Below are positions 30,784-44,487 of a stretch of DNA of 64,000 bases, in pieces. Both the position numbers and the translations under genes were made by a program. Each line of letters opens with the position of its first letter. Positions within the stretch are counted from its first letter, which is position 1. The DNA lies in NCBI RefSeq assembly GCF_004342605.1, contig NZ_SLZL01000005.1:1-64000 (forward strand). The letters run 5' to 3'. The notes under the pieces were generated by a model. That model searched no databases, was not told the origin of the DNA, and saw nothing but the letters and a program-made list of their open reading frames with translations. This stretch comes from Caulobacter sp. BK020. Lineage in GTDB: Bacteria > Pseudomonadota > Alphaproteobacteria > Caulobacterales > Caulobacteraceae.

Positions 30784-30869
30784 TCACCTTATCGCCAATT
30801 TCACAGGCACTCGCCTGAGCCATGGCGAAATCGTCAACAAATTCCGACTTCTTGGATTGAAGTTATTAT

Positions 30870-30881
30870 TGAAACGTTTCA
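30870..30881. promoter_or_regulatory. LacI-type operator of nucleoside receptor
   Basis: Perfect palindrome TGAAACGTTTCA, 49 bp before the receptor ATG. The central CG and the AAACGTTT core are typical of LacI-family sites. The same sequence occurs at 39725 and 42292. Confidence 0.8.
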
Positions 30882-30930
30882 CTTTCGTTGGGTCGGGCGC
30901 CGCGTGGCGGCCCGGATTTGGGGAGAGACC

Positions 30931-33180
30931 ATGAGACGTTCAGCCCTTCCAGTATCGCTTCTGGCGATGATCGCGGCGTCGAGCGCCCACGCGCAGGCGA
31001 TGCCCGACCAAGCTTCGTCGGGCGTCCAAGCGCTCGACGAAATCGTCGTCACCGCTCAAAAGCGCAGCCAGAACCTTCGCGACGTGCCGCTGTCGGTGAG
31101 CGCCACGAGCGGCGAGGCGCTACGCGCCGTTACCGCATCGGGTGATGACATTCGGGTGCTGTCGGGCCGCATTCCCAACCTGAACGCCGAATCCACGTTC
31201 GGCCGCGTCTATCCGCGCTTCTATATCCGCGGCCTGGGCAATTCGGACTTCACGCTTAACGCGTCCCAGCCGGTGGCGATGTACTACGACGAAGTCGTGC
31301 TGGAGAATTCCGTCCTCAAGGGCATGCCCGCCTTCGATCTGGAGCGCATCGAGGTGCTGCGCGGACCGCAAGGATCGCTCTGGGGCAAGAACGCCACGGC
31401 CGGCGCTATTCATCTGGTGTCCCGCAAGCCGACGCAGGAGACCGAAGGCTATGGCCGCGTCAGCTATGGACGCTTCAACAGCTACAACCTGGAAGCCGCC
31501 CTCGGCGGGGCGGTGGCGCAGGACACGCTGAGCGCTCGCGTCTCCGTGCTCTATCAGCACCGCGATCCGTGGGTGAAAAACATCGTCACCGGCAACAAGC
31601 TGGACGGCTACGACGACCTGGCGTTTCGCGCCCAGCTCCTGTGGACGCCGATGGCGAAGTTCGACGCCCTGTTCCAGGTCTATGGTCGTTCGCTGGATGG
31701 CAGCTCGACGCTGTTCAACGGCCGGGGCGTCGACGCCCAGTACGGCGTACTGCCCTTCAACAAGTACAACATCGCCCTGGAGAGCGATCACCAGAGCGAC
31801 CAGAAGGTCCACGAGCGCGGCGTCACGCTGAACGCCACCTACGATCTGGGCGGCGCCAAGCTGACCAGCATCAGCGCCTATGTGGACGGCGACATGTTCT
31901 CGGTAGGCGATATCGACGGGTCTCCGCGGCCAGCCCTGATCAACACCACCAAGGTCGACAAGCTGCAGCAGTTCACGCAGGAGGTTCGCTTGGCTTCCGA
32001 CAGCGGCGGACCCCTGTCCTGGCAGGTCGGCGGCCACTATTTCGAGGAATGGCTGCGCTATGCCAACCTCACCGCCAACAACACCTTCCAGACCGCCGAC
32101 GGCCAGCCAGGCTTCGGCGCCTATCAGAAGGCGCGGCAACAGAGCCGCAGCGCGGCCGTATTCGGCCAGATCACCTATAGCCTCACCGACAGCCTGAAGG
32201 TGACGGGCGGGCTGCGCTACACCGCCGACAAGGTCGACTTCAGCCAGGATTCGTCGTCGTTCACGCCCAAGGCGAGCGACCTGACCGCCGTCCCGAACTT
32301 CACCACCGATCCGTTCTACCGGGCGGGCGAGCGCGGCCCGGGGCCATGGTTCCTGCCTCGCTATTCGGCCGAGGGCGGCAAATGGCGCAAGCTGACCTGG
32401 GACGGCAGCCTGGCCTATCGGCTCAACGACGCGGTCAATCTCTATGGCCGTGTCGCACGCGGTTACCACGCGGGCGTGATCACCGGCCAGGCGATGTTCG
32501 ACCCGCTGCAGAAGGCCGGCCCCGAGACGGTGACGTCCTATGAGGCCGGCGCAAAGATCCAGGGGTTCGACCGGCGGCTGACGGCCAACCTGTCGGTGTT
32601 CAAGTACATCTACGACGACATGCAGCTGGTCGCCTACAACCGCACGGGAAACGGCGTCGATCGCATCAGCCTGATCAACGCCAAGGGCGGCAAGGGTCAC
32701 GGGTTCGAGTTCGAAGGCACGCTGATCGTCACCTCGGAGCTGAAGGTCTCGGCCAATCTGGGCTATGTCGACACCAAGATCAGTGGCCCGACTCTGATCG
32801 CCGATCCGCGCGCCGCCGGCGCCCAGCTCGACATCACCGGCCAGCCGTTCCCGTTCGCGTCCAAGTGGACGGGCTCGGTTTCGGCCGAGTACGCCCATGC
32901 CCTGGACGATGACGCCACCGTCTTCCTGGCGACCGACTGGTCCTATCGCGGCGACGAGAACTTCTCGCTGACCAGCGGCGTCCAACCAGACCTGCGCGGC
33001 GAAGGCTATTGGGAAGGCGGCGCGCGGGCTGGGTATCGCTTCAAGCAGAGCGAAATCTCGGTGTGGGCCCGCAACATCACCGATGTCTCGCGCCTGACCA
33101 GCGCCGTCACCGTCAACGGCTATGCGGGGGTCTTCACCAATCCGCGAACCTACGGCGTCCAGCTGTCGACCCGGTTCTGA
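30931..33180 (+). CDS. TonB-dependent receptor, LacI-regulated (nucleoside uptake)
   Basis: 749 residues from ATG 30931, after GGGGAGAG. The signal peptide ends at ASSAHAQ, then LDEIVVTAQKRSQ, the plug with IEVLRGPQGSLWGKNATAGA and a barrel ending in QLSTRF. Two TGAAACG-type operators precede it. Since every other gene carrying this operator is concerned with nucleosides, the receptor probably imports nucleosides, nucleotides or oligonucleotides across the outer membrane. The specificity is inferred from regulation only. Confidence 0.9.
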   Translation: MRRSALPVSLLAMIAASSAHAQAMPDQASSGVQALDEIVVTAQKRSQNLRDVPLSVSATSGEALRAVTASGDDIRVLSGRIPNLNAESTFGRVYPRFYIRGLGNSDFTLNASQPVAMYYDEVVLENSVLKGMPAFDLERIEVLRGPQGSLWGKNATAGAIHLVSRKPTQETEGYGRVSYGRFNSYNLEAALGGAVAQDTLSARVSVLYQHRDPWVKNIVTGNKLDGYDDLAFRAQLLWTPMAKFDALFQVYGRSLDGSSTLFNGRGVDAQYGVLPFNKYNIALESDHQSDQKVHERGVTLNATYDLGGAKLTSISAYVDGDMFSVGDIDGSPRPALINTTKVDKLQQFTQEVRLASDSGGPLSWQVGGHYFEEWLRYANLTANNTFQTADGQPGFGAYQKARQQSRSAAVFGQITYSLTDSLKVTGGLRYTADKVDFSQDSSSFTPKASDLTAVPNFTTDPFYRAGERGPGPWFLPRYSAEGGKWRKLTWDGSLAYRLNDAVNLYGRVARGYHAGVITGQAMFDPLQKAGPETVTSYEAGAKIQGFDRRLTANLSVFKYIYDDMQLVAYNRTGNGVDRISLINAKGGKGHGFEFEGTLIVTSELKVSANLGYVDTKISGPTLIADPRAAGAQLDITGQPFPFASKWTGSVSAEYAHALDDDATVFLATDWSYRGDENFSLTSGVQPDLRGEGYWEGGARAGYRFKQSEISVWARNITDVSRLTSAVTVNGYAGVFTNPRTYGVQLSTRF

Positions 33181-33242: not shown

Positions 33243-34268
33243 TCAGGGGTGGTCGACGACCCTGCTCTGGCCGAGCCACGCGGCCTTGTCGTCGAGCGAC
33301 ATGAACGATGCGGCCAGGCTGTTGCGGGCCAGCTGCGCCAGATCGGCGCGGGAAAGGCCAAGCGCCCGGGCGACCCGCACGTAGTTGTCGACGAGATAGC
33401 CGCCGAAATAGGCCGGATCGTCCGAGTTGATGGTGACCACCAAGCCGGCGTCGATCATCCGCCGCAGGGGATGCTCCTCCAGCCTGTCGACGACGCACAG
33501 CTTGAGATTGGACAGCGGACAGACGGTCAGAGGCACGTGATCGCGCGCCAGCCGCGCGATCAGAGCGGGATCCTCCAAGGCCCGATTGCCGTGATCGATC
33601 CGATCGACCCGCAGGATGTCGAGCGCCTGCCAGACATAGGCCGGCGGCCCCTCCTCCCCGGCATGGGCGACGACCTTCAGCCCCAGTTCGCGCGCCGCGG
33701 TGAAAACGCGCGCGAACTTCTCGGGCGGATGGCCCAGCTCCGAGGAGTCCAGGCCGACACCGTCGATGTGCGCCAGGAACGGCATGGCCGCTTCCAGGGT
33801 CGCGAAGGCGGCGGCCTCGTCGAGATGGCGCAGGAAGCAGAGGATGAGCTTGGAGGTCACGCCCAGTCGCGTGCGGGCTTCGTCCATGCCCGTGACCAAG
33901 CCCTGTACGACCTCGGCCATGGGAACGCCGCGGACAATGTGGGTCTGGGGATCGAAGAAGAGTTCGGCGTGGACGCCGCCATCGGCGGCCAGACGCTCGA
34001 AATAGGCGATGGCGAGGTCGGTGAAGTCCCGTGCGGTCCGCAATGAGCCGGCGCCCTCGTAATAGATGTCCAGGAAGGCTTGCAGGTTCGAGAAGCCATA
34101 GGCCGCTCGCACCGCCTCAGCGCTGCCGAAGCGGATCGGCGTGCGGTTGCGCTCCGCCAGCTGGAACATCAGTTCCGGCTCCAGCGTGCCCTCGATGTGC
34201 ACGTGAAGCTCGGCCTTGGGGAGGCCGCGAACAAAGGCCTCCAGACCGTCGTCATGGGCTTGGGTCAT
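33243..34268 (-). CDS. Adenine deaminase (adenosine-deaminase family)
   Basis: 341 residues. The metal-binding His22 and His24 sit in ELHVHIEGTLEPELMF, a form typical of the adenine deaminase branch rather than of adenosine deaminase. GLDSSELGHPPEKF, VVAHAGEEGPP, the catalytic RIDHGNR and the INSDDPAYFGGYL metal motif support that branch. It would turn adenine, released by the nucleoside hydrolase at 43158, into hypoxanthine and ammonia in the cytoplasm. It follows the transaldolase gene by 8 bp and shares its operator at 34998. Adenosine deaminase activity remains possible. Confidence 0.85.
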   Translation of the reverse strand: MTQAHDDGLEAFVRGLPKAELHVHIEGTLEPELMFQLAERNRTPIRFGSAEAVRAAYGFSNLQAFLDIYYEGAGSLRTARDFTDLAIAYFERLAADGGVHAELFFDPQTHIVRGVPMAEVVQGLVTGMDEARTRLGVTSKLILCFLRHLDEAAAFATLEAAMPFLAHIDGVGLDSSELGHPPEKFARVFTAARELGLKVVAHAGEEGPPAYVWQALDILRVDRIDHGNRALEDPALIARLARDHVPLTVCPLSNLKLCVVDRLEEHPLRRMIDAGLVVTINSDDPAYFGGYLVDNYVRVARALGLSRADLAQLARNSLAASFMSLDDKAAWLGQSRVVDHP

Positions 34269-34276
34269 CGCGCGCC

Positions 34277-34927
34277 TCAGATCGTCTGGCCGCTGGCCGC
34301 CCAGTCGACCATGAACTGCTTGAGGCCGCTGGCGGTCAGGGGATGATTGAAGAGCTCAGTGAACAAGGCCACCGGCAGGGTGGCGCAATCGGCTCCAGCG
34401 AGGGCGGCGGCCTTGACGTGCGCCACGCTCCGGGCGGAGGCCGCCAGGATCTTGGTTTCGAATGCATAGTTGTCGTAGACGGTCCTGATCTCGCCGATCA
34501 GGCTTGAGCCGTCGAAGCCATAGTCATCCAGCCGTCCGATGAAGGGCGAAACGTAGGTCGCCCCCGCCTTGGCGGCCAGCAAGGCCTGACCGACGGAGAA
34601 GCACAGCGTCACATTGGTCGAGAGGCCTTCGGCGGCGAGCGCGGAGCACGCGATCAGGCCGTCACGAGTCAGCGGCAGCTTGACGACCACGTTCGAGGCC
34701 AGGGCGGCCAGTTTGCGCCCCTCGGCGATCATGGCGTCGGCCTCGGCGGCCACCACCTCGGCGCTGACCGGGCCGCCGACCGCCTCGCAAATCTCCACGA
34801 TCACGTCGATCATCGAGCGATTGGCCTTGGCGACCAGGGTAGGGTTGGTGGTCACCCCGTCGACCAGTCCCGTAGCGGCGAGGTGGCGGATCAGTTCGGC
34901 GTCCGTACTGTCGAGGAAAATCTGCAT
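34277..34927 (-). CDS. Transaldolase / fructose-6-phosphate aldolase family
   Basis: 216 residues, the short TalC/FSA type. It begins [13 protein letters not shown], has TTNPTLVAK, and the Schiff-base lysine K83 in NVVVKLPLT. It moves a dihydroxyacetone unit between sugar phosphates and would connect pentose phosphate from nucleosides to central metabolism. The start at 34927 fits the family, but the clearest ribosome site (AAGGTG) is in front of an in-frame ATG at 34975, so a longer N-terminus is possible. It is first in the operon with adenine deaminase. Confidence 0.88.
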
Positions 34928-34997
34928 GGAGAAGCTCGGCGGAAGGGCGATCCCAAGCGCGGGAACAAACATCACCTTGACACCGTGACCGCAATAA

Positions 34998-35009
34998 TGA
35001 AACGTTTAA
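34998..35009. promoter_or_regulatory. LacI-type operator between talC-like and nupC-like genes
   Basis: TGAAACGTTTAA, one base off the palindrome seen at 30870, 39725 and 42292. It lies in the divergent region between the transaldolase operon and the nucleoside transporter and could control both. Confidence 0.7.
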
Positions 35010-35035
35010 GTTAGCTTTTCATCCAGGGGGTCTCC

Positions 35036-36289
35036 GTGTTGAACGAAGAGTTTGGACGCGGCCTCCTGGGGGTGGCGGCATTCTTGGGCTTGGCCTGGGT
35101 CTTCTGCGAGAACCGCGCCGGCTTCAGGCTTCGAACCTTGCTGATCGGGCTCGCGATCCAGGCTCTCCTGGCCTTCGTCCTGACGCGGGCGCCGGTCGCC
35201 CTGACTTTTTTCAAGGGGGTCACCCACGTCGTCGACAGCGTCCAGTCCGCCGCCACCGCGGGAACAAGCTTCATGTTCGGCTATCTCGGCGGCGCGCCGC
35301 CTCCCTATGTGCGCGGCCAGACCGGCTCGACCTTCATCTTCGCCTTTCAAGCCCTGCCCGCGATCCTGATGGTCGGGGGGCTTTCGGCCCTGCTCTGGCA
35401 TTGGAAGATCCTGATCTGGATCGTTCGTGGCGCGGCGTGGCTGTTCAGTCGCGCCTTCCAGGTCAGCGGACCGGTCGCCGTCTCGACCTCGGCCTGCATT
35501 TTCCTGGGCATGGTCGAGGCGCCGCTTCTGGTCCGCCCCCTTTTGCCCAAGCTCACCCGCGGCGAGCTCTTCATCATCATGGTCGACGGCCTGTCGGTCG
35601 TGGCCGGCTCGACCATGCTGCTGCTGGGCGCGATGATGGCGACCCGCATCCCCGACGCGTTCACCCATTTGCTGACCGGCTCGATCGTCACCACGCCGAT
35701 GGCGATCGCCCTGGCCAAGGCCATGGTTCCAAGTCCGCCCAGCCCCTTGCAGGCCATGGAGCTGAGCTCGCCCTACCGCAGCAGCCTGGAAGCCATGACC
35801 TTCGGCACGCTCGACGCCGTCAAGATGGTCATCAATATCGCGGGCCTGCTGATCGTCTTCGTCTCGGCGATCGCCCTGGTCGACAAGGGCCTGACGCTGA
35901 TCCCCCACAGCGGCGCGCCGATCAGTCTCAACCTGGTGTTCGGCAAGCTGCTGGCCCCGGTCGCCTGGCTGATGGGCGCGCCGATGAAGGATCTTGAGCA
36001 GATCGGGGCCCTGCTGGGCCTGAAGGTCATGGCCAATGAGGTGGTCGCCTATAGCCACCTGATCGAGCTCCCGGCCGGTGCGATGGCCCCCAAGTCCGAA
36101 CTGATCGCCACCTACGCCCTTTGCAGCTTCGGCAACCTCGGCAGCGTGGCGATCATGATCGGTTCGCTGTCGACCATGGTCCCTGAGAAGGTCGCCGAGG
36201 TGGTTGATCTGGGCTTCCGCGCCCTGTTCGCGGCCTTCCTGGCCACCTGCCTGACCGGCACGATCATGGGCCTGCTCTCGGCCTTCTAG
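35036..36289 (+). CDS. Concentrative nucleoside transporter, NupC/CNT family
   Basis: 417 residues, highly hydrophobic with about ten membrane segments. CNT motifs include GTSFMFGYLGG near residue 78, the Na+/substrate region STSACIFLGMVEAPLLVRP, and the C-terminal GLKVMANEVVAYSHL and ALCSFGNLGSVAIMIG. It imports nucleosides by ion symport across the inner membrane. The start is a GTG at 35036, 5 bp after AGGGGG and 27 bp after the operator at 34998. Together with the outer-membrane receptors it completes the uptake path. Confidence 0.93.
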   Translation: MLNEEFGRGLLGVAAFLGLAWVFCENRAGFRLRTLLIGLAIQALLAFVLTRAPVALTFFKGVTHVVDSVQSAATAGTSFMFGYLGGAPPPYVRGQTGSTFIFAFQALPAILMVGGLSALLWHWKILIWIVRGAAWLFSRAFQVSGPVAVSTSACIFLGMVEAPLLVRPLLPKLTRGELFIIMVDGLSVVAGSTMLLLGAMMATRIPDAFTHLLTGSIVTTPMAIALAKAMVPSPPSPLQAMELSSPYRSSLEAMTFGTLDAVKMVINIAGLLIVFVSAIALVDKGLTLIPHSGAPISLNLVFGKLLAPVAWLMGAPMKDLEQIGALLGLKVMANEVVAYSHLIELPAGAMAPKSELIATYALCSFGNLGSVAIMIGSLSTMVPEKVAEVVDLGFRALFAAFLATCLTGTIMGLLSAF

Positions 36290-36351: not shown

Positions 36352-37212
36352 TTAGGCCGGACGGGCGCGGGCGCGTCCGGCGAGCATGGCGTAGGCCGCC
36401 TCGGAACCGGCGGCGGCCGCGGCAACCGGATCCTCGCCCTTCAACACCGCCGCCAGGGTCGCTCCGGCGAACACATCGCCCGCTCCGGTGGCGTCATAGA
36501 CCTTGAGCCGTCGTGTGGGGACCGTACGGACGTAGCCGCCGTGGTCGACCAAGACGCCCTCCTCGCCGCGCGTTTCGAAGATCGCCCTCGGCGCGGCGGC
36601 GCCGCCGCCGCTCCCCAGCAGCCCATCGATCCACGGACGCTCCGCGCCGTTGCAGAAGACATAGTCGGCGCGAGCCAGCAGCTGCTTCACCAGTCCGTCG
36701 GGAAAGCAGGCCGGATCGTTCTTGGCGATCCACGCCACCCGCGCCTGGGGGCGAACTTCTCCCAGCAGCCGGGTGGCGACTTCGGGATCGCCGGCGGCGA
36801 TCACTACCACATCGGCCCTGGCGACGAGGTCGCGCTGGACTTCCGTCTCCGCGCCGCTCAGCGAGCGCAGCACGCAACCATAGGCGCCGTTGGCGCTGTA
36901 GATCAGCAGGCACTGAGCCGTTCGGGCCCCGGAGATCTTTGAGACGCCGGACACATCCAAACCCGCCGCGCGGCAGCCGGACAGGAAGATCAGCCGCTCC
37001 TCGTCATCGCCGACCCAGGTGACGGGACTCACCTCGAAGCCCCCGGCCGCCAAGGCGGCGCTGGTATAGAGCGCGGCGGCGCCGGCGCGTGGCCTCAAGG
37101 ACTCCGGATCGCCGCGCATCGGCAAGGTGCCGCGCCCTCGAAAGTCGCCGTCGACCTCGACCACATAGTCGATCGTCGCAAATCCGCAGACGACGATCCT
37201 GGGGTTGTTCAT
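36352..37212 (-). CDS. PfkB-family carbohydrate/nucleoside kinase
   Basis: 286 residues. The N-terminus (RIVVCGFATIDYVVEVDG) and the ATP/anion-hole signature DATGAGDVFAGATLA place it in the PfkB/ribokinase family. It is shorter than the usual 300-310 residues, and the first signature is weak. It is downstream of the LacI-regulated receptor by about 100 bp and likely co-transcribed. It may phosphorylate ribose set free by the nucleoside hydrolase and replace the dead ribokinase at 42053, or phosphorylate nucleosides directly. Confidence 0.85.
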   Translation of the reverse strand: MNNPRIVVCGFATIDYVVEVDGDFRGRGTLPMRGDPESLRPRAGAAALYTSAALAAGGFEVSPVTWVGDDEERLIFLSGCRAAGLDVSGVSKISGARTAQCLLIYSANGAYGCVLRSLSGAETEVQRDLVARADVVVIAAGDPEVATRLLGEVRPQARVAWIAKNDPACFPDGLVKQLLARADYVFCNGAERPWIDGLLGSGGGAAAPRAIFETRGEEGVLVDHGGYVRTVPTRRLKVYDATGAGDVFAGATLAAVLKGEDPVAAAAAGSEAAYAMLAGRARARPA

Positions 37213-37313: not shown

Positions 37314-39683
37314 CTAGAACCGTACGCGCAGGGACGCGGTGTAGGTGCGCGGCGCGCCGAGGAAGTAGCGGTCAAGCGTGCGGACGGTCGGCCCGGTCTG
37401 CAGGCCGAACTCCGGCTGCGTCGCGGTCGAGCCCGACACTGCGCCGATGTAGGTCTCGTCGAAAAGATTATCGACGTTGAACTGCAGTTGCATCTCCGGC
37501 AGCCCTTGGCGACGGATGTCATAGGCGGCCGACAGGCCTACGACGGTGTAGCCGTCGATGGTCTCGACCTCGATTTCGTCGAAGGTCACCGGGCGAATGA
37601 TATGGCCGCCCACGCGGTCGCCGACATGGCGTCCGGTGACATCGAGCTTGAGGTTCGAGGTGGCCTGCCAGCCGACCTGGGCGAAGAACGAGGTCTTGGG
37701 AATGTCGCGCACGCGCGCGCCGCCGATGATGCCGATCGCGGCCAGGTTCCTTCGGGCCGTGCTGCCGACCGGCGGGTCGTCATGCTTGGCGTCCTGCAGC
37801 GACAGCGATCCGTAGACGTCGATCGCTCCGAAGTCATAGAAGCCGGTGAATTCCACGCCGCGCGACTTCTGACCGGCAGTGTTGGCCGCGCGCGTGGCGA
37901 CGTTGCCCCGCACGACCTCTTCGGGATCCAGGGCCGAGGTCGGGTCGCGCGGCACGATGCCGACATTGTTCTTCAGGTGGACATCGTAGCCTTGAACCGA
38001 GAAGGCGGCGTTGTCGCGGACCCAGCGCAGACCAAGGTCGAGGTTGCGGGTCTCGACAGGCTTGAGGTCGTCCGGATTGATCACCGCCGTCGAGCCCAGG
38101 AAGGCGTCCTCGGGAATGCCCGAGAAGCCAGTCGCGTAGCCGCCGAACATCTCCCAGGCGCCCGTGAGTCTGTAGGACGCGCCCAGTTTCGGATTGACCT
38201 TGGAGTCCTGCGAGAACTTGACGTTGGCCTTGTATTCCAACGGCGACTTGGCGTCGTACTTGAGGTGGAAGAAGGTCAGGCCCAGATCAACCTTCAGGCG
38301 ATCGTCCAGAGCCCGAATCTCGTCCTGGGCGTAGAACATCAGGGTCTCGACCGAGGCCGTCCGTTCGTACTCGACATAGTTCAGCCTGGATCGATCGTAC
38401 GCGATGCTCTGGGCCGAGTTTATGATCGGATAGAAGTTCCGCTTCTCGGTCGACTCCCCGCCTTCCCACCAGCCGCCGATGCGGACGCTATGGCCGGCGA
38501 AAAGATTGTCGGCCTTGACTTCGGCCGTCAGGCCGTAGCGATCGCGGTCGCGCGGCGTGACGCGCATATCGGCAGGACCGCCGACGGCGTTGCTGTTGCG
38601 AAGAGTCGTCAGGCTCGGGCGCACGGCGCCGCCGGACGTGTTGTAGCTGGTGACCGCGCGCGGGTCACCGCCGGTCAGGATCCGCCGGCGGTCCTGGTAG
38701 CGATACGACTCGCCCTTGAGCGTCTGGTAGTAGGGATTGACGCCCAGGGTCACATTGTCGGCCAGCTTGAAGCGGCCGTTGACATAGGCCAGCAGGTCCT
38801 TGCGCCTGCCGCCCAGAGCGCCGCCAAAGTCGATGTCGCGGGCCGGAACGCCCGTGAGGTCGTCGAGCGCGCGGTCGCTGTGGGGATTGGCGAGGAATTC
38901 CCCCCTGGTGACGATGTTGAAGTCGTTGTCCGTCTGGTCGTTGTAGGACAGCCGCCCGGTAAGGCTTGAGCCGTCCTCGAACGCCTTGACGATCTTGGCC
39001 TCGTAGTGCGCGCGCTTGGAATGGCGCGAGCGCTGACCGGCCCAGATGTCGTTTTCCTGCTTGGAGGCGGTCGCATAGGCGGTCAGGCCCTTGGCGATCT
39101 CGCCGGTGTCGACACGTGCATAGCCTCGCCAGAAGTCGAACGACCCTGCGCCGCCTTCGAGGGTGACGCCGAAGTCCTGCTTGGGCTTGTCGGTCACGAA
39201 GTCGATGAAGCCGCCCAGGGCGAAGCGCGACGGCGCGCCGATGTCGCCCGAGCTTTGCGACACGGTGATCTTGCCGATGTTGCTGGATTCAATGAAGCGC
39301 TGCGGCGGCGAACCGCCATTGAACCGGGAATCGCCGGTCGGGACGCCGTCGAGCGTCAGGCCGATCTGTTCGTCGGAGAGGCCCCGGAGATAGATCTCGA
39401 ACGAGAAGCTGCCCCCACGGCTGTCGCCGGTCGAAACCTGGACCCCGGGCACCTTGACTAGGCTCTGGGTGATGTCGGCTCCGGCCGGGCGCTGCAGGAT
39501 ATCCTCGGCGCCCACCGTGAACGTGGCCCGCGCGAGTCCCGAACCAAAGCGTTCGCTGGTGACGACCACTTCCTCCAAGGTGTTGGCGTCACTCTGCGGC
39601 GCGACCGTCGCCTGGGCGCTGGCATTGGCCGCCCCCATCAGAACCGCGATCGTCGAAACACCCCAAACCAGATAGCCCCGCAT
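37314..39683 (-). CDS. TonB-dependent receptor, LacI-regulated (nucleoside uptake)
   Basis: 789 residues from ATG 39683, placed by AGGGGAAGTG upstream. The signal peptide ends at ANASAQ, followed by LEEVVVTSERFG. The plug is of a different type from the other receptors here, with GLSDEQIGLTLDGVPTGDSR and SRFALGGFIDFVTDKP instead of VLRGPQGTLFG. The barrel ends in ASLRVRF. The perfect operator at 39725 precedes it. Linked with pfkB and opposite lacI, it is probably a second nucleoside or nucleotide receptor with another specificity. Confidence 0.9.
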   Translation of the reverse strand: MRGYLVWGVSTIAVLMGAANASAQATVAPQSDANTLEEVVVTSERFGSGLARATFTVGAEDILQRPAGADITQSLVKVPGVQVSTGDSRGGSFSFEIYLRGLSDEQIGLTLDGVPTGDSRFNGGSPPQRFIESSNIGKITVSQSSGDIGAPSRFALGGFIDFVTDKPKQDFGVTLEGGAGSFDFWRGYARVDTGEIAKGLTAYATASKQENDIWAGQRSRHSKRAHYEAKIVKAFEDGSSLTGRLSYNDQTDNDFNIVTRGEFLANPHSDRALDDLTGVPARDIDFGGALGGRRKDLLAYVNGRFKLADNVTLGVNPYYQTLKGESYRYQDRRRILTGGDPRAVTSYNTSGGAVRPSLTTLRNSNAVGGPADMRVTPRDRDRYGLTAEVKADNLFAGHSVRIGGWWEGGESTEKRNFYPIINSAQSIAYDRSRLNYVEYERTASVETLMFYAQDEIRALDDRLKVDLGLTFFHLKYDAKSPLEYKANVKFSQDSKVNPKLGASYRLTGAWEMFGGYATGFSGIPEDAFLGSTAVINPDDLKPVETRNLDLGLRWVRDNAAFSVQGYDVHLKNNVGIVPRDPTSALDPEEVVRGNVATRAANTAGQKSRGVEFTGFYDFGAIDVYGSLSLQDAKHDDPPVGSTARRNLAAIGIIGGARVRDIPKTSFFAQVGWQATSNLKLDVTGRHVGDRVGGHIIRPVTFDEIEVETIDGYTVVGLSAAYDIRRQGLPEMQLQFNVDNLFDETYIGAVSGSTATQPEFGLQTGPTVRTLDRYFLGAPRTYTASLRVRF

Positions 39684-39724
39684 GTCACTTCCCCTGTCAG
39701 CGTCGGCGCATACAAGGCATAAAT

Positions 39725-39736
39725 TGAAACGTTTCA
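39725..39736. promoter_or_regulatory. LacI-type operator between receptor and lacI-type gene
   Basis: Perfect TGAAACGTTTCA, 42 bp before the receptor start and about 200 bp before the regulator start. It would mediate repression of receptor/pfkB and possibly autoregulation. Confidence 0.8.
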
Positions 39737-39938
39737 CTAGTAGATTTTTGCAAGAATCCGGTCTAGGCAGGCTTGACGGCATGAAATTGCCTTCACGTCA
39801 TGCCTTTTGCTACCGACACCCTCGGGCTTCACCCCCTAATGGCGCGTCGGGAATGACGGTTTTCTGAATGCATTAAGTTGCTCGTTCAGAACGATGCCCC
39901 TAAGAAGGGTCAGGACCAATCGAGCCCGAGGCGAATTC

Positions 39939-40937
39939 GTGAGCGAGACCAGCGGACGTCGGCCAACGCTCAAGGAGGTCGCCCGCGCGGCGGGCGTTTC
40001 GGTGGCCAGCGCATCGTATGCGATCAATGGAACGGGCTCGGTAGGGGAACAGACCCGCGAGCACATCCTGGCGGTCGCCGCCCAACTGGGCTATCGGCCC
40101 AATCTCAGCGCCAAGGCGATGAAGACGGGCCGGACGGGAACCATTGGCCTGGTCGTTCCCGACCTGACCAACCCGTTCTTCCCGAGCTTGGCCCAGGTAA
40201 TCATCCAGACCGCGCGCCAGCGCGGCTACAGCGTGCTCCTCACCGACACCGAGGGCTCGCCCGACGCCGAGCGGCAATCTCTCCAGCTGCTGTCGGAGCG
40301 CGGCGTCGACGGGGTGATCTGGTTTCCCGTTTCCGACGACAGCGCCGTTGGCGAAGCCATCGGCGGAACGCCCACCGTCGTCCTCGACCGCAATCTGGCC
40401 GGCTACGACGTGATCCACGCCGACTACGCCCAGGGGGGCGAACTGGCTGCGCGACGCCTGATCGCTGCGGGCCACACGCGCATCGGCGTCATCTCCGGTC
40501 CGGTCGCCGCCTCCAGCGCCCGCCAGCGGGCCCAAGCCGCCGCGGAGGTGATCAGGACTGAAGCGCAGTTGGCCTGGCAGGTCAGCAACGCTTTCTCGCT
40601 GGATCTCGAGCCGGCCGTGCTCGCCGCGATCGACAGCCGGGACGCCACCGCGATCGTCGTCGGGGCCGACCTGATCGCCATCGGCGCGATCCGCCATCTC
40701 CATGCGTCCGGCCTCAAGGTGCCCGAGGACGTCTCGATCATCGGATTCGACGATATCCCGTGGGCGCCGCTCAACACCCCCCCCTTGTCGACCATCGAAA
40801 TGCCCAGCGAGGAGATGGCGCTCGAGGCGGTCGAGCTGCTGCTTCGCCGTATCGCCCAGCCTGACGAGCCGCGCCGGCGGGTGGTTTTCAATGTCGGGCT
40901 GATCGAGCGCGCCTCGGTGGGCCCGCCGCCACGATAG
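39939..40937 (+). CDS. LacI-family regulator of the nucleoside regulon
   Basis: 332 residues from a GTG at 39939, which follows GAGGCG by 5 bp; an upstream ATG at 39894 has no ribosome site. The HTH is TLKEVARAAGVSVASASYAI with the hinge helix AKAMKTGRTGTIGLV, then a periplasmic-binding-type effector domain (VPDLTNPFFPSLAQ, VDGVIWFPVS, VPEDVSIIGFDDIPWAP). It is the only LacI protein in the window and sits among five matching operators, so it almost certainly controls them. The inducer is probably a nucleoside or a breakdown product. Confidence 0.92.
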   Translation: MSETSGRRPTLKEVARAAGVSVASASYAINGTGSVGEQTREHILAVAAQLGYRPNLSAKAMKTGRTGTIGLVVPDLTNPFFPSLAQVIIQTARQRGYSVLLTDTEGSPDAERQSLQLLSERGVDGVIWFPVSDDSAVGEAIGGTPTVVLDRNLAGYDVIHADYAQGGELAARRLIAAGHTRIGVISGPVAASSARQRAQAAAEVIRTEAQLAWQVSNAFSLDLEPAVLAAIDSRDATAIVVGADLIAIGAIRHLHASGLKVPEDVSIIGFDDIPWAPLNTPPLSTIEMPSEEMALEAVELLLRRIAQPDEPRRRVVFNVGLIERASVGPPPR

Positions 40938-42056
40938 ATGGCGTTGCTCCTGGGATCGGCGCTCCTGACGCTCGCCCTTGGCGGGGCGGCTTCACCGCGC
41001 CCGAACTGCGCGCTTCCCGCGCCGGTCGCACACTTGAGCGGCGTCCATGACGTCGCTTCGACGGCTGGCGGCCCCACCCGCGACTTCGGCGGCATTTCGG
41101 GCATGGACCAGCGCCACGGCCGATGGCTGCTGATCAGCGACGATCGGTCCGAACGCGCCCCGGCGCGGCTCTACCAAGCCCGGATCGCTTTCCGGGGCGG
41201 GACGATCGGCGATGTTCGACTTTTCGCGCCACGGCCCCTGCGGGATCAAGCCGGCCAGCCCTTCCCCAGACCTGGCCTGGGACGCGAGGCCGTGGACGCC
41301 GAGGCGGTGCGCTTCGATCCGAAGGACGGTGCGATCATCTGGAGCAGCGAAGGCGACGCGCGGGACGGATTTGCGCCGGGCCTGAGGCGGCAGAGCCGCC
41401 CAGGAAGCCTCAGCCGTCCCATCACCCTGCCGCCCGGCCTGATCGAGACGCCAAACCAGGGCCCTCGGCCCAATCTCGCCTTCGAAGGCCTGACCTTCGG
41501 GGTCGACGGCGAGGCGCTTTGGATCGGCCTTGAGGCGCCGCTGAAGCAGGACGGCCCGCTGGCTTCGCGCGCCGCTGGCGTCCTGGTGCGGCTCAGCCGA
41601 CTAGGGCGCCAGGGCCAACTGGTCCAGTTCGCCTATCGAACCGATCCGATCTCGGCCGCCTCAACAGGCCTGCGCGCCGACAACGGCGTCAGCGAGATCC
41701 TCGCCCTGGACGCCGAGCGCCTGCTGGTTCTCGAACGATCCGGCGTCGAGGTGTCGCCCGGCCGCTTCTCCTATGACGTGCGGCTCTATGTCGCCGACCT
41801 GCGCGGCGCGACCGATGTCGCCGACCTGGCCTCGCTGGACGGCGCGGCGGTGACGACCGCCGCCAAGACCCTGGTCTTCGATTTCCACGCCGCGGGCCAG
41901 GACCGGAATTTCGAGGCCATGGCCTGGGGGCCGCGGCTGGGCGGACGCGCGCGAACCCTGGTGCTGGCCGAGGACAACAACTTCGAGGGCGACAAGACCC
42001 GGTTCGTCACCCTGCGCCTGAACATGCCGGCGCGGCCGGCCTGTCCCGCCGGCTAG
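40938..42056 (+). CDS. Phytase-like esterase domain protein
   Basis: 372 residues with a cleavable leader (ALLLGSALLTLALGGAASP). The body matches the phytase-like esterase beta-propeller family: DFGGISGMDQRHGRWLLISD, REAVDAEAVRFDP, NLAFEGLTFGVDGEALWIG, ILALDAERLLVLERSG and DRNFEAMAWGP. The ATG follows the lacI-type stop with no gap, so it is translated with the regulator. A periplasmic phosphatase or esterase would suit release of nucleosides from nucleotides. That role is inferred from context, and biochemical data for the family are thin. Confidence 0.78.
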   Translation: MALLLGSALLTLALGGAASPRPNCALPAPVAHLSGVHDVASTAGGPTRDFGGISGMDQRHGRWLLISDDRSERAPARLYQARIAFRGGTIGDVRLFAPRPLRDQAGQPFPRPGLGREAVDAEAVRFDPKDGAIIWSSEGDARDGFAPGLRRQSRPGSLSRPITLPPGLIETPNQGPRPNLAFEGLTFGVDGEALWIGLEAPLKQDGPLASRAAGVLVRLSRLGRQGQLVQFAYRTDPISAASTGLRADNGVSEILALDAERLLVLERSGVEVSPGRFSYDVRLYVADLRGATDVADLASLDGAAVTTAAKTLVFDFHAAGQDRNFEAMAWGPRLGGRARTLVLAEDNNFEGDKTRFVTLRLNMPARPACPAG

Positions 42057-42286: not shown

Positions 42287-42308
42287 TTAAGTGAAACGTT
42301 TCACTTAA
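42287..42308. promoter_or_regulatory. Strongest LacI-type operator (22-bp perfect palindrome)
   Basis: TGAAACGTTTCA at 42292-42303 extends by TTAAG/CTTAA on both sides into a 22-bp perfect inverted repeat. A TTGACA at 42273-42278 lies just upstream and may be a -35 element, with the operator over the -10. It precedes the barrel protein/nucleoside hydrolase genes by about 175 bp. Nothing else was seen in 42309-42481. Confidence 0.82.
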
Positions 42309-42481: not shown

Positions 42482-43150
42482 ATGCCCTCGTTCTCGCAAC
42501 CGCCAGTCTTCATCGCGTTCACCGGCGTGGATCGCGCCGACCTCATTCCCGAGATGCAGACGCTTTCGAGCGCCTATCCGATCGAATGGGGCCTTCTGAT
42601 TGATCCCGACAGACCCGCAGACCACCTCTTCGCCGACGAGCGGTTGGTCGACGCCTCGCGCACGGCCGGCGGCCTGCGCCTGGCGGCCCATGTCTGCGGC
42701 GCCCTGGCCCGGGAAATCGTCGCCGATCCCTTGACCGCACGGTTCGATCCGACCGGCTTCCAGCGGGTCCAGGTCAATCACAGCTTCGAGGGCAGCTCGC
42801 CGGCCGCGATCGCGGCGACCCGGCTTTACGGTCGCCGTGTCGGCGTGCGCGCGGTGTTGCAGACCAAGGACGTCTTCCCCGCCGAGGAGGGGGTCGATTG
42901 GCTGTATGACGTCTCCTTCGGCGTGGGGGTGCGCCCGTCGACCTGGCCGGCCTTACCCGACAGCGGACCGTTCTGCGGCTTTTCCGGAGGCTTGGGCCCG
43001 GCGACCGTCGAAGGGGCGTTGACGGCGATCGCCGCGCCGGTTGGCGCGATCTACTGGATCGACATGGAGTCGCAGATCCGCACCGACGGCCTGCTCGATC
43101 TCGACAAGTGCCGTGCGGTCTGCCGCGCCGTCTATGGCGAGCGGGGCTAA
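42482..43150 (+). CDS. TrpF-like TIM-barrel protein of unknown function
   Basis: 222 residues; AAGGAAG precedes the ATG. I recognise only a resemblance to phosphoribosylanthranilate-isomerase-type barrels: a first strand FIAFTGVDRADLI, alternating strands (IEWGLLID, LRLAAHVCG, FQRVQVNH, GVRAVLQTKD, VDWLYDVSFG), a glycine-rich phosphate-site-like FCGFSGGLGP and a late YWIDMESQIRTDGLLDLDK. No tryptophan genes are near. It is the first gene after the strongest LacI-type operator and 7 bp before the nucleoside hydrolase. A role in handling ribose phosphate or another sugar is possible but unproven. Confidence 0.7.
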   Translation: MPSFSQPPVFIAFTGVDRADLIPEMQTLSSAYPIEWGLLIDPDRPADHLFADERLVDASRTAGGLRLAAHVCGALAREIVADPLTARFDPTGFQRVQVNHSFEGSSPAAIAATRLYGRRVGVRAVLQTKDVFPAEEGVDWLYDVSFGVGVRPSTWPALPDSGPFCGFSGGLGPATVEGALTAIAAPVGAIYWIDMESQIRTDGLLDLDKCRAVCRAVYGERG

Positions 43151-43157
43151 GGTCGGG

Positions 43158-44126
43158 ATGTCGCTCCAGTCCCCTCTGAAGGTCGTCTTTGACACTGATC
43201 CCGGCGTCGACGATGCGCTGGCGCTGGCGTTCCTCCATGCTCATCCAGGCTTGGACCTGCTGGCCGTGACCACGGTGTTCGGCAATGCCGACATCGAGAC
43301 CACGACCCGAAACGCGCGCTACCTCTGCCAGCGCTTCGGGATTTCCGCGCCGATCGCTCAGGGCGCCGCCAAGCCGCTGCATCGGGCGCGAAACCCTTCG
43401 CCCGTCGCCATCCATGGCGGCAACGGGCTGGGAGACTATCCGGTCCCCGACCTTCGCCTGCCGCCGCTCCAGCCTCGCGACGCCGCCGACGAGATCATCG
43501 CTCGGATCAGGGCCGCGCCCGGCGCGGTGACGATCATCGCAGTGGGCCCGCTGACCAATCTGGCCCTGGCTTGCACGCGCGATCCCGAGATCGCCATCCT
43601 GGCGAGGGAAGTGATCCTGATGGGCGGCGCCTTCGGCGTCGGAAAACACGCCGGGAACGTCACCCCTCACGCCGAAGCCAACATCTTCAACGACCCCGAG
43701 GCGGCCGCCATCGTCCTGGCCGCGCCCTGGCCGATCAGCATCGTGGGCCTAGACGTGACGCTCGACTGTCTGCTGACCAACGAGGCGGCCGAGGCCCTGA
43801 CAGAGCGGGCGGGATGGCTGGGGCGCTTCATCTTCGATGTCACGCGCCACTACGTCGAAGCCTACCGGGCCGATGGCGTCGATGGGTGCTGCCTGCACGA
43901 TGTCGCCGCCGTCGCCTATGCCATAGACCGCGGCCTCTTCCGGATCCGCCACGGCGCGGTCGGCGTCGACACCATCGGTCCGCAGACCGGCCGCACCCGT
44001 TGGCTTCCCGACGAGCCGCCCCCAGCCCCGCGGAATGTCTGCGTGGGCGTTGACCGTGACGGCCTGGTCGACCTCTTCTGCGAATCCATCGTTCGACAAT
44101 CCGCCCTGACCGAGGCCGAGACGTGA
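43158..44126 (+). CDS. Inosine/uridine-preferring nucleoside hydrolase
   Basis: 322 residues. The Ca2+-binding aspartate cluster VVFDTDPGVDDALALAF (D12-D19) is the hallmark of the family. Further motifs are AVGPLTNLALA, EVILMGGAFGV and LHDVAAVAYA with the late metal-ligand Asp. The enzyme splits the N-glycosidic bond of nucleosides to base and ribose. The start at 43158 follows TAAGG. No signal peptide is seen, so it acts in the cytoplasm after import. It is co-regulated with the uptake genes by the operator at 42287. Confidence 0.93.
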   Translation: MSLQSPLKVVFDTDPGVDDALALAFLHAHPGLDLLAVTTVFGNADIETTTRNARYLCQRFGISAPIAQGAAKPLHRARNPSPVAIHGGNGLGDYPVPDLRLPPLQPRDAADEIIARIRAAPGAVTIIAVGPLTNLALACTRDPEIAILAREVILMGGAFGVGKHAGNVTPHAEANIFNDPEAAAIVLAAPWPISIVGLDVTLDCLLTNEAAEALTERAGWLGRFIFDVTRHYVEAYRADGVDGCCLHDVAAVAYAIDRGLFRIRHGAVGVDTIGPQTGRTRWLPDEPPPAPRNVCVGVDRDGLVDLFCESIVRQSALTEAET

Positions 44127-44314: not shown

Positions 44315-44390
44315 CGCGCCAGGCATGGTAGCCGTTGGCCGACAGGCCCAGAACCCGACACATCATGCGAACGGCCTGGCGTCGCGGCGC
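44280..44390 (-). mobile_element. IS3-family transposase orfB fragment
   Basis: On the minus strand MKFGFVDERRDA, then after a one-base shift VRMMCRVLGLSANGYHAWRV and RPESARERG, match the first 40 residues of IS3-group OrfB transposases. The DDE catalytic core is absent and no terminal repeats were seen. It is a decayed scrap, too small to move, but it marks an old insertion at the end of the nucleoside operon. The rest of 44127-44487 shows no gene. Confidence 0.7.
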
Positions 44391-44487
44391 TCATCGACGA
44401 ACCCGAACTTCATCGGGAGGCCGCCCCGAAGATGAGCACGGCGATTTTTCCGCTCGTCCCCGACATCAGTCGCCACCTTTCAAGAAC

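Follow-up and report, generated by a model that had tools for sequence, protein, structure and literature searches.

The locus lies in a window of 64,000 nucleotides, the whole stretch of DNA that was analyzed, from Caulobacter sp. BK020. An open reading frame at 42482..43150 on the plus strand, with an ATG start and a TAA stop, encodes a protein of 222 residues, which we name TrpFL (TrpF-like protein) on the basis of its reading frame, fold and family alignment. It is followed on the same strand by a gene for a nucleoside hydrolase (NH) of 322 residues (43158..44126; PF01156, E 4e-81), which starts at 43158, 7 bp past the TrpFL stop at 43150. A search for a terminator-like site between the two genes found none. 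The narrow gap and the lack of such a site speak for the co-transcription of the two genes that the first-pass annotation of this DNA had proposed. Just behind NH, positions 44360-44480 on the minus strand look by eye like the disrupted beginning of an IS3-type transposase. Beyond the window, the genome contains four more NH homologues, on contigs C8, C2, C16 and C23 of the assembly (G000).

The surrounding genes form a nucleoside regulon, as claimed before. Upstream of TrpFL lie a LacI-family regulator (39894..40937, plus strand; assigned by Pfam, with RbsR and UriR as the closest NCBIfam models, both below cut-off) and a phytase-like esterase (40938..42056, plus strand; PF13449 by Pfam), a recurrent neighbor that may be a nucleotide phosphatase. 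Farther upstream, a TonB-dependent receptor (37314..39782, minus strand; Pfam) and a PfkB-family sugar kinase (36352..37212, minus strand; PF00294, E 5e-23) are encoded. The latter is a candidate ribokinase, for which NCBIfam models of both ribose-1-phosphate kinase and ribokinase match below cut-off. They are joined by a NupC-type nucleoside transporter (35036..36289, plus strand; PF07662/PF01773), a member of the transaldolase / F6P-aldolase family (TAL_FSA; 34277..34975, minus strand; PF00923, E 3e-58), an adenosine deaminase (33243..34268, minus strand; PF00962, E 1.5e-89) and a second TonB-dependent receptor (30904..33180, plus strand; Pfam).

A putative LacI-type operator, read from the DNA as the perfect 22-bp palindrome TTAAGTGAAACGTTTCACTTAA, precedes the TrpFL-NH pair at 42287..42308 (no strand assigned), and TrpFL starts 173 bp downstream of it. 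When the 16-bp core of this very site was used as the search pattern, four sites with at most three mismatches were found in the window (at 30868, 34996, 39723 and 42290), compared with 0.07 expected. Apart from the site itself, these are a copy at the start of the open reading frame of the first TonB receptor (39723..39738, one mismatch), one between the transaldolase gene and nupC (34996..35011, three mismatches) and one before the second TonB receptor (30868..30883, one mismatch), all without assigned strand. The site before TrpFL had been called the strongest operator. Judged by its perfect palindrome it deserves the name, but the mismatch count carries no weight in this respect, because the pattern was derived from that site's own sequence.

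By itself, the TrpFL sequence says little about its origin. The window protein has no match above cut-off in Pfam, NCBIfam or PHROGs, and a search of the PDB with the single sequence returned no relative. The best-fitting family, PF00697 (PRAI, the TrpF family), reaches only E 0.1 and 12.8 bits against a cut-off of 22.7, whereas one distant relative (L102) passes this cut-off with 27.9 bits. The picture changes when the family is considered as a whole, using an alignment of 102 members (the window protein and 101 of 160 loci). At E<=1 in Pfam, PRAI is matched by 89 of the 102 (best E 2.4e-7), whereas the other 17 families are matched by one member each, and in NCBIfam no name but PRAI recurs at E<=0.01, a single PRAI model matching at most 26/102 members. 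A profile-profile comparison with 21 proteobacterial TrpF sequences gave a probability of 94.9 and an E-value of 4e-8. Against PDB sequences, the family profile found TrpF in five of six rows, with a best E of only 0.08. PHROGs had no match for any of the 102 members at E<=0.001. No family model dedicated to TrpFL was found in Pfam, NCBIfam or PHROG, and searches of the open-access PMC literature showed no paper on the family.

The AlphaFold2 model, built from the 102-sequence alignment, is a TIM barrel with a mean pLDDT of 95.1 and a pTM of 0.92. Plain Foldseek ranked mixed barrels first, with no TrpF among the best 50 rows, and a viral structure library gave only weak and mixed matches. In a second-look structural alignment against the PDB, the best nine rows were all TrpF or TrpF-containing (two of them TrpC-TrpF fusions or bifunctional entries), with Z scores of 16.0-18.6. 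The TrpF structure 1nsj came first (Z 18.6, rmsd 2.5 A over 185 residues, 14% identity), PdxJ was the next family with Z up to 15.9, and barrels other than these two stayed at or below 14.3. On the predicted fold and the profile evidence taken together, TrpFL is a remote relative of TrpF. The description as a TrpF-like barrel in the first-pass annotation thus holds for fold and profile, but not for the single-sequence match, which is not significant.

Among 61 genomes, the own one and those of relatives, TrpFL occurs in six, all in the genus of the window, and in all five of the others NH, PfkB, NupC, LacI, phytase-like esterase and TonB receptor genes lie within the same 20 kb. A class-level search matched 7 of 385 genomes, again counting the own genome; one of the seven (G064) is partial with an internal stop and looks spurious. 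With the alignment as query, a phylum-level search matched 4 of 398. NH homologues are found in 45 of the same 61 genomes, most of which have no TrpFL, so NH is used widely in the genus without it. TrpFL is therefore not required for NH use as such, and its substrate may be a compound peculiar to the loci that have it. Wider scans found 82 relatives among genomes sampled at one per species (the best 80 of the 82 were analyzed) and 122 on IMG/VR viral contigs (the best 80 of the 122 were analyzed). Relatives are present on 16 of 72,556 plasmid records, 14 annotated as hypothetical protein and two unannotated, and in 4 of 50,697 phage records, which include Microcystis phage Mwe-JY13 (complete genome) and uncultured phages with records 635 and 735 kb long. 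Some replicons carry several copies. A 0.9-Mb alphaproteobacterial genome has three, two of them in direct tandem (L021 and L022; G128:C1 43597-46668), and one contig of Achromobacter anxifer has two genes from different branches about 28 kb apart (L093 and L111).

The neighborhoods of these relatives fall into two groups. Among the matches listed, 36 of 37 chromosomal loci from Proteobacteria with 47-75% identity have a nucleoside gene within 8 kb, defined as NH, PfkB kinase, adenosine deaminase, NupC or an AzgA-like purine permease, compared with 0 of 123 loci below 46% identity (80 viral and 43 bacterial contigs). In a 75% non-redundant set the figures are 23/24 and 0/83. The 46% boundary was set after the neighborhoods were known, and is supported by a gap in identity between 44 and 47 and by the tree described below. 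The first group, hereafter the nucleoside clade, comprises loci from Caulobacter, Sphingomonadales, Rhizobium, Pleomorphomonas, Steroidobacter, Xylophilus, Duganella, Collimonas, Pseudomonas and others. Within 8 kb of its 37 loci we counted PfkB 31 times, NH 27, NupC 14, the AzgA-like permease 12 and adenosine deaminase 9, as well as TonB receptors 21 times, GntR 19, the phytase-like esterase 16, LacI 13 and transaldolase once. These counts are lower bounds because 12 of the 37 loci end at contig ends. None of the ten scanned neighbor families, whose profiles were built from the neighbors of TrpFL in the window and in one relative, was found within 8 kb of the 123 outside loci among the matches listed. 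The single exception in the clade (L072) is a 6.3-kb contig that carries a LacI gene. NH lies within 100 nt downstream of TrpFL in 20/37 loci. The partners vary by lineage while TrpFL stays: NupC comes with LacI, and AzgA or a PnrA-type ABC system with GntR. At one locus (L010 7416-8653, G003), the nupC match beside TrpFL is in two overlapping pieces, possibly due to a frameshift or a sequencing error.

The link between TrpFL and nucleoside genes is thus conserved in many proteobacterial lineages. The contrary outcome named in the first-pass annotation, no conserved link, therefore did not occur, and its view of TrpFL as an enzyme candidate without assigned function in a nucleoside pathway is borne out by a TrpF-related barrel that keeps this company.

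In TrpF, a strand-1 cysteine (in the motif KICG) and a strand-6 aspartate are catalytic, and the arginine of an SPR motif contacts the substrate. The KICG cysteine is invariant in 21/21 TrpF sequences. At its place, the 102 aligned TrpFL members have T (96), S (4), A (1) or N (1) and never Cys; strand 1 lies ahead of the start of the profile alignment and was therefore assigned by its motif and its position among the strands. The aspartate, by comparison, is kept: D143 is present in 102/102 members, in a segment that aligns with the invariant Asp of TrpF strand 6. Other TrpF invariants that align are the GxG motif, GG169-170 and D194..S-x-V. The phosphate-site-like FSGGLGP of the first-pass annotation corresponds to residues 167-173, and both of its glycines are conserved in 102/102 members. 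In the second phosphate-site segment, S/T and V/I/L are each conserved in 102/102, and the middle Gly only in 79/102 (Q in the window protein), so the SGV half of a TrpF-type phosphate site is present only in part. In all, H70, C72, R95, Q97, D143, G149, G166, GG169-170, W192, D194, M195 and E196 are invariant in the 102 members; of these, H70, C72, R95, Q97, D143, GG169-170, W192, D194, M195 and E196 were located within or just past strands of the model. Several have no TrpF counterpart, the additional ones being H70, C72 and E196. The proposal that TrpFL acts on a ribosyl-phosphate compound gains indirect backing from the retained GG, S-x-V and aligned catalytic Asp, which would fit such a substrate.

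The branches differ on one side of this site. Residue 49, which aligns with the invariant Arg of the TrpF SPR motif, is Arg in 73/73 rows outside the nucleoside clade, whereas within the clade 26 of 29 rows have Leu, two Arg and one Pro; the window protein has Leu. At residue 146, Phe occupies 29/29 nucleoside rows and Gly 58/73 outside rows. A shared core with a changed side suggests that the branches carry out the same chemistry on a different substituent, and residue 49, with its Leu or Arg, offers a ready contrast between them.

Can TrpFL simply be a second, ordinary TrpF? The shared fold and remote homology would allow it, but the KICG cysteine is missing, the protein is below the Pfam cut-off, and nucleoside genes accompany it at 36/37 clade loci. 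Above all, normal trpF genes are present elsewhere. The first-pass annotation had noted the absence of tryptophan genes nearby; for trpF, the gene that we examined, this is correct, as the canonical full-length copy of the genome (168 bits) lies on another contig. Canonical trpF was also found in 26/26 other nucleoside-clade genomes tested, a check that covered 26 of the 37 clade loci. TrpFL is therefore not the genome's TrpF, and we consider this explanation hardly credible. A role as stand-in for ribose-5-phosphate isomerase was likewise rejected: rpiA is present in the own genome and in 23 of the same 26 others, and rpiB in the three without rpiA (rpiB was checked in 4 of the 26 genomes), so that all 26 have one or the other. 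A Pfam scan of TrpFL at E<=5, inspected for RpiA/RpiB family membership, matched PRAI only.

The relatives outside the clade point to a mobile history. A tree of 96 rows (the 75% non-redundant set plus six rows from genome-search loci, omitting ten loci with partial or odd reading frames and the odd-numbered viral loci below 32% identity) places the nucleoside group as one clade on one side of a single branch (SH-aLRT 99). Outside it are rows from viral contigs and from contigs of Pseudomonadota, Bacteroidota and Bacillota. With midpoint rooting, the clade is placed among proteobacterial rows, mostly from viral contigs. This suggests that the nucleoside clade may have been captured from mobile elements, on a rooting that is not firm. 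The 122 IMG/VR relatives, together with the phage and plasmid records, could also mean that TrpFL first served phages, for instance in counter-defence or by controlling host nucleotide pools, and that the nucleoside clade keeps this activity as protection. Among the phage-branch neighbors, a dATP/dGTP pyrophosphohydrolase and a PARG domain (one each), and also DNA methylases, would suit this idea. However, no consistent phage partner emerged, the commonest Pfam families matching only 2 of 112 scanned neighbors (of 114 chosen; two of L169 were omitted), and we give this origin little credence as an account of TrpFL.

Two further features of these branches were recorded. In 22 of 160 loci, TrpFL has a cluster of ASCH-like genes no more than 5 kb away, directly downstream in 10 of the 22; phage-branch loci such as L085, L094, L166 and L207 are examples of this neighborhood, and the one representative that was scanned matched ASCH with E 9e-4, just below cut-off. 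The plasmid-borne TrpFL proteins of Azospira (L039) and Azonexus (L041) have C-terminal extensions of about 120-200 residues. That of Azonexus has a weak PRA-PH/MazG-like match below cut-off. For that of Azospira, suspected by eye to be a nucleoside deoxyribosyltransferase, neither Pfam nor PDB sequences gave support.

Together, our data suggest a model in which TrpFL is a phage-related TrpF-type isomerase that was recruited for derivatives of ribose or ribose 5-phosphate from nucleosides, its more distant relatives residing largely in phages and plasmids and its own branch being a standing part of bacterial nucleoside catabolism. We put the probability of this reading, taken as a whole, at roughly 0.4. 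Nucleosides would enter through the TonB receptors and NupC, or in relatives through the purine permease or the PnrA-type ABC system. Adenosine deaminase and NH would then set free base and ribose, and the PfkB kinase would phosphorylate the ribose. TrpFL would bind a derivative of ribofuranose 5-phosphate (or of ribose), open the ring with Asp143 as acid, as in TrpF, and shift the carbonyl or imine from C1 to C2, in an aldose-ketose or Amadori-type isomerization. The carbon would finally reach the pentose phosphate pathway, and the regulon also has a transaldolase. For TrpFL, the fold, the kinship with TrpF, the loss of the TrpF cysteine, the conserved active-site residues, the nucleoside link and the regulon rest on observation, whereas catalysis, phosphate binding and isomerization are inferred. 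The exact substrate is the least certain point: plain ribose 5-phosphate is an unlikely one, and a ribosylamine or other N-glycoside of ribose 5-phosphate is unlikely to a similar degree. As a normal ribose-5-phosphate isomerase is present, the proposed isomerization would duplicate an existing step. Moreover, since the TrpF cysteine is absent and H70, C72 and E196 are additional invariants, the chemistry may differ from isomerization.

A distant fusion bears on this last point. In L016 / L032 (G367:C6, 9335-11395 of L032), a TrpFL domain is fused behind a GTP cyclohydrolase II-like domain (GTP_CH_N, E 4e-34; PDB 7ej3, E 3.5e-65), and the genes that follow encode a protein with a Lysine_decarbox (LOG-like) C-terminus and a cytidine-deaminase-like protein, both slightly below Pfam cut-offs. 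It is possible that these genes form a nucleotide-degrading operon. Another distant TrpFL member is followed by a PfkB kinase gene. Single cases as they are, the fusion and the kinase neighbor suggest that other branches, too, handle nucleotides or ribosyl compounds. The product of GTP cyclohydrolase II-class enzymes is an N-phosphoribosylamine. TrpFL might cleave or clear N-glycosides, that is ring-opened, damaged or unusual ribosyl compounds, with no isomerization: Asp143 would protonate the ring, and E196, H70 or C72 would carry out the hydrolysis. In nucleoside catabolism this would be by-product handling; in phages, the removal of a toxic or signalling ribosyl compound. Such an activity would make sense of an invariant acid, His and Cys beyond those of TrpF, of the company of LOG-like and cytidine-deaminase-like proteins, and of TrpFL in phages without nearby nucleoside genes. 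However, the fusion was seen only once and in a distant branch, and the nucleoside clade often has NH adjacent (the 20 of 37 loci given above), so that we regard this alternative as somewhat unlikely.

It is also conceivable that TrpFL acts on unphosphorylated ribose, either as an RbsD-like helper in ring opening or anomer conversion or by isomerizing ribose to ribulose; its phosphate motif would then be an inherited relic. NH releases free ribose, two full-length loci with TrpFL (L082 and L078) have no PfkB within 8 kb, and the nucleoside clade has replaced the residue aligned with the invariant Arg of TrpF. All this would fit such an enzyme. The phosphate-site segments nevertheless speak against a relic, as GG is invariant and S/T-x-V/I/L kept in 102/102 members, those of phages included, and we consider this alternative decidedly unlikely. 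The reading of TrpFL as a recruited TrpF-type isomerase also has its bounds, since the 123 outside loci, being without nucleoside genes, lend no direct support to a ribose role there.

More broadly, TrpFL may stand for a new TrpF-descended family, present in phages, plasmids and several phyla, that performs an undescribed opening of a (phospho)ribosyl ring, and of which one branch, taken up by Proteobacteria, gave up the Arg that corresponds to the invariant one of TrpF and turned into a dedicated step in nucleoside catabolism. We hold this wider statement to be evenly balanced between right and wrong. If it is true, the well-studied route from nucleosides to pentose phosphates would have an unassigned enzyme in many Proteobacteria. 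The same enzyme family would be carried by many phages, where it has no PHROG, and the nucleoside branch would offer this phage family a testable substrate class.

Several known systems invite comparison. The GTP_CH_N/GTP cyclohydrolase II-like domain of the distant fusion is presumably the kind of domain found in Urc1, which would connect TrpFL with the URC route of uracil catabolism, although no URC gene was identified in the window. The steps of the URC pathway from uracil to ribosylurea are described as uncharacterized (PMC7530994). The regulon of the window shares LacI-family control with those of UriR, AdeR and HpxR, which govern nucleoside use in the account accessible to us; that part of the source mentions no TrpF-like gene (PMC4052901). 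PdxJ (pyridoxine 5'-phosphate synthase) is also a TIM barrel and the next best structural family, but its Z scores are lower than those of TrpF and it was not matched in the family-profile search of PDB sequences. HisA / PriA (ProFAR isomerase) resembles TrpF in the class of its reaction, TrpF and HisA both performing Amadori rearrangements of 5'-phosphoribosyl amines (PMC7591586), and is absent among the best 50 structural rows and from the Pfam profile matches, which excludes nothing. TrpF itself (PF00697, PRAI) matches over the whole barrel with Z 18.6 and with the Asp, GxG, GG and D..S-x-V aligned. TrpFL differs from it by a Thr or Ser at the Cys position in 100/102 members, by an additional invariant His, Cys and Glu, and by its place among nucleoside genes and in phages.
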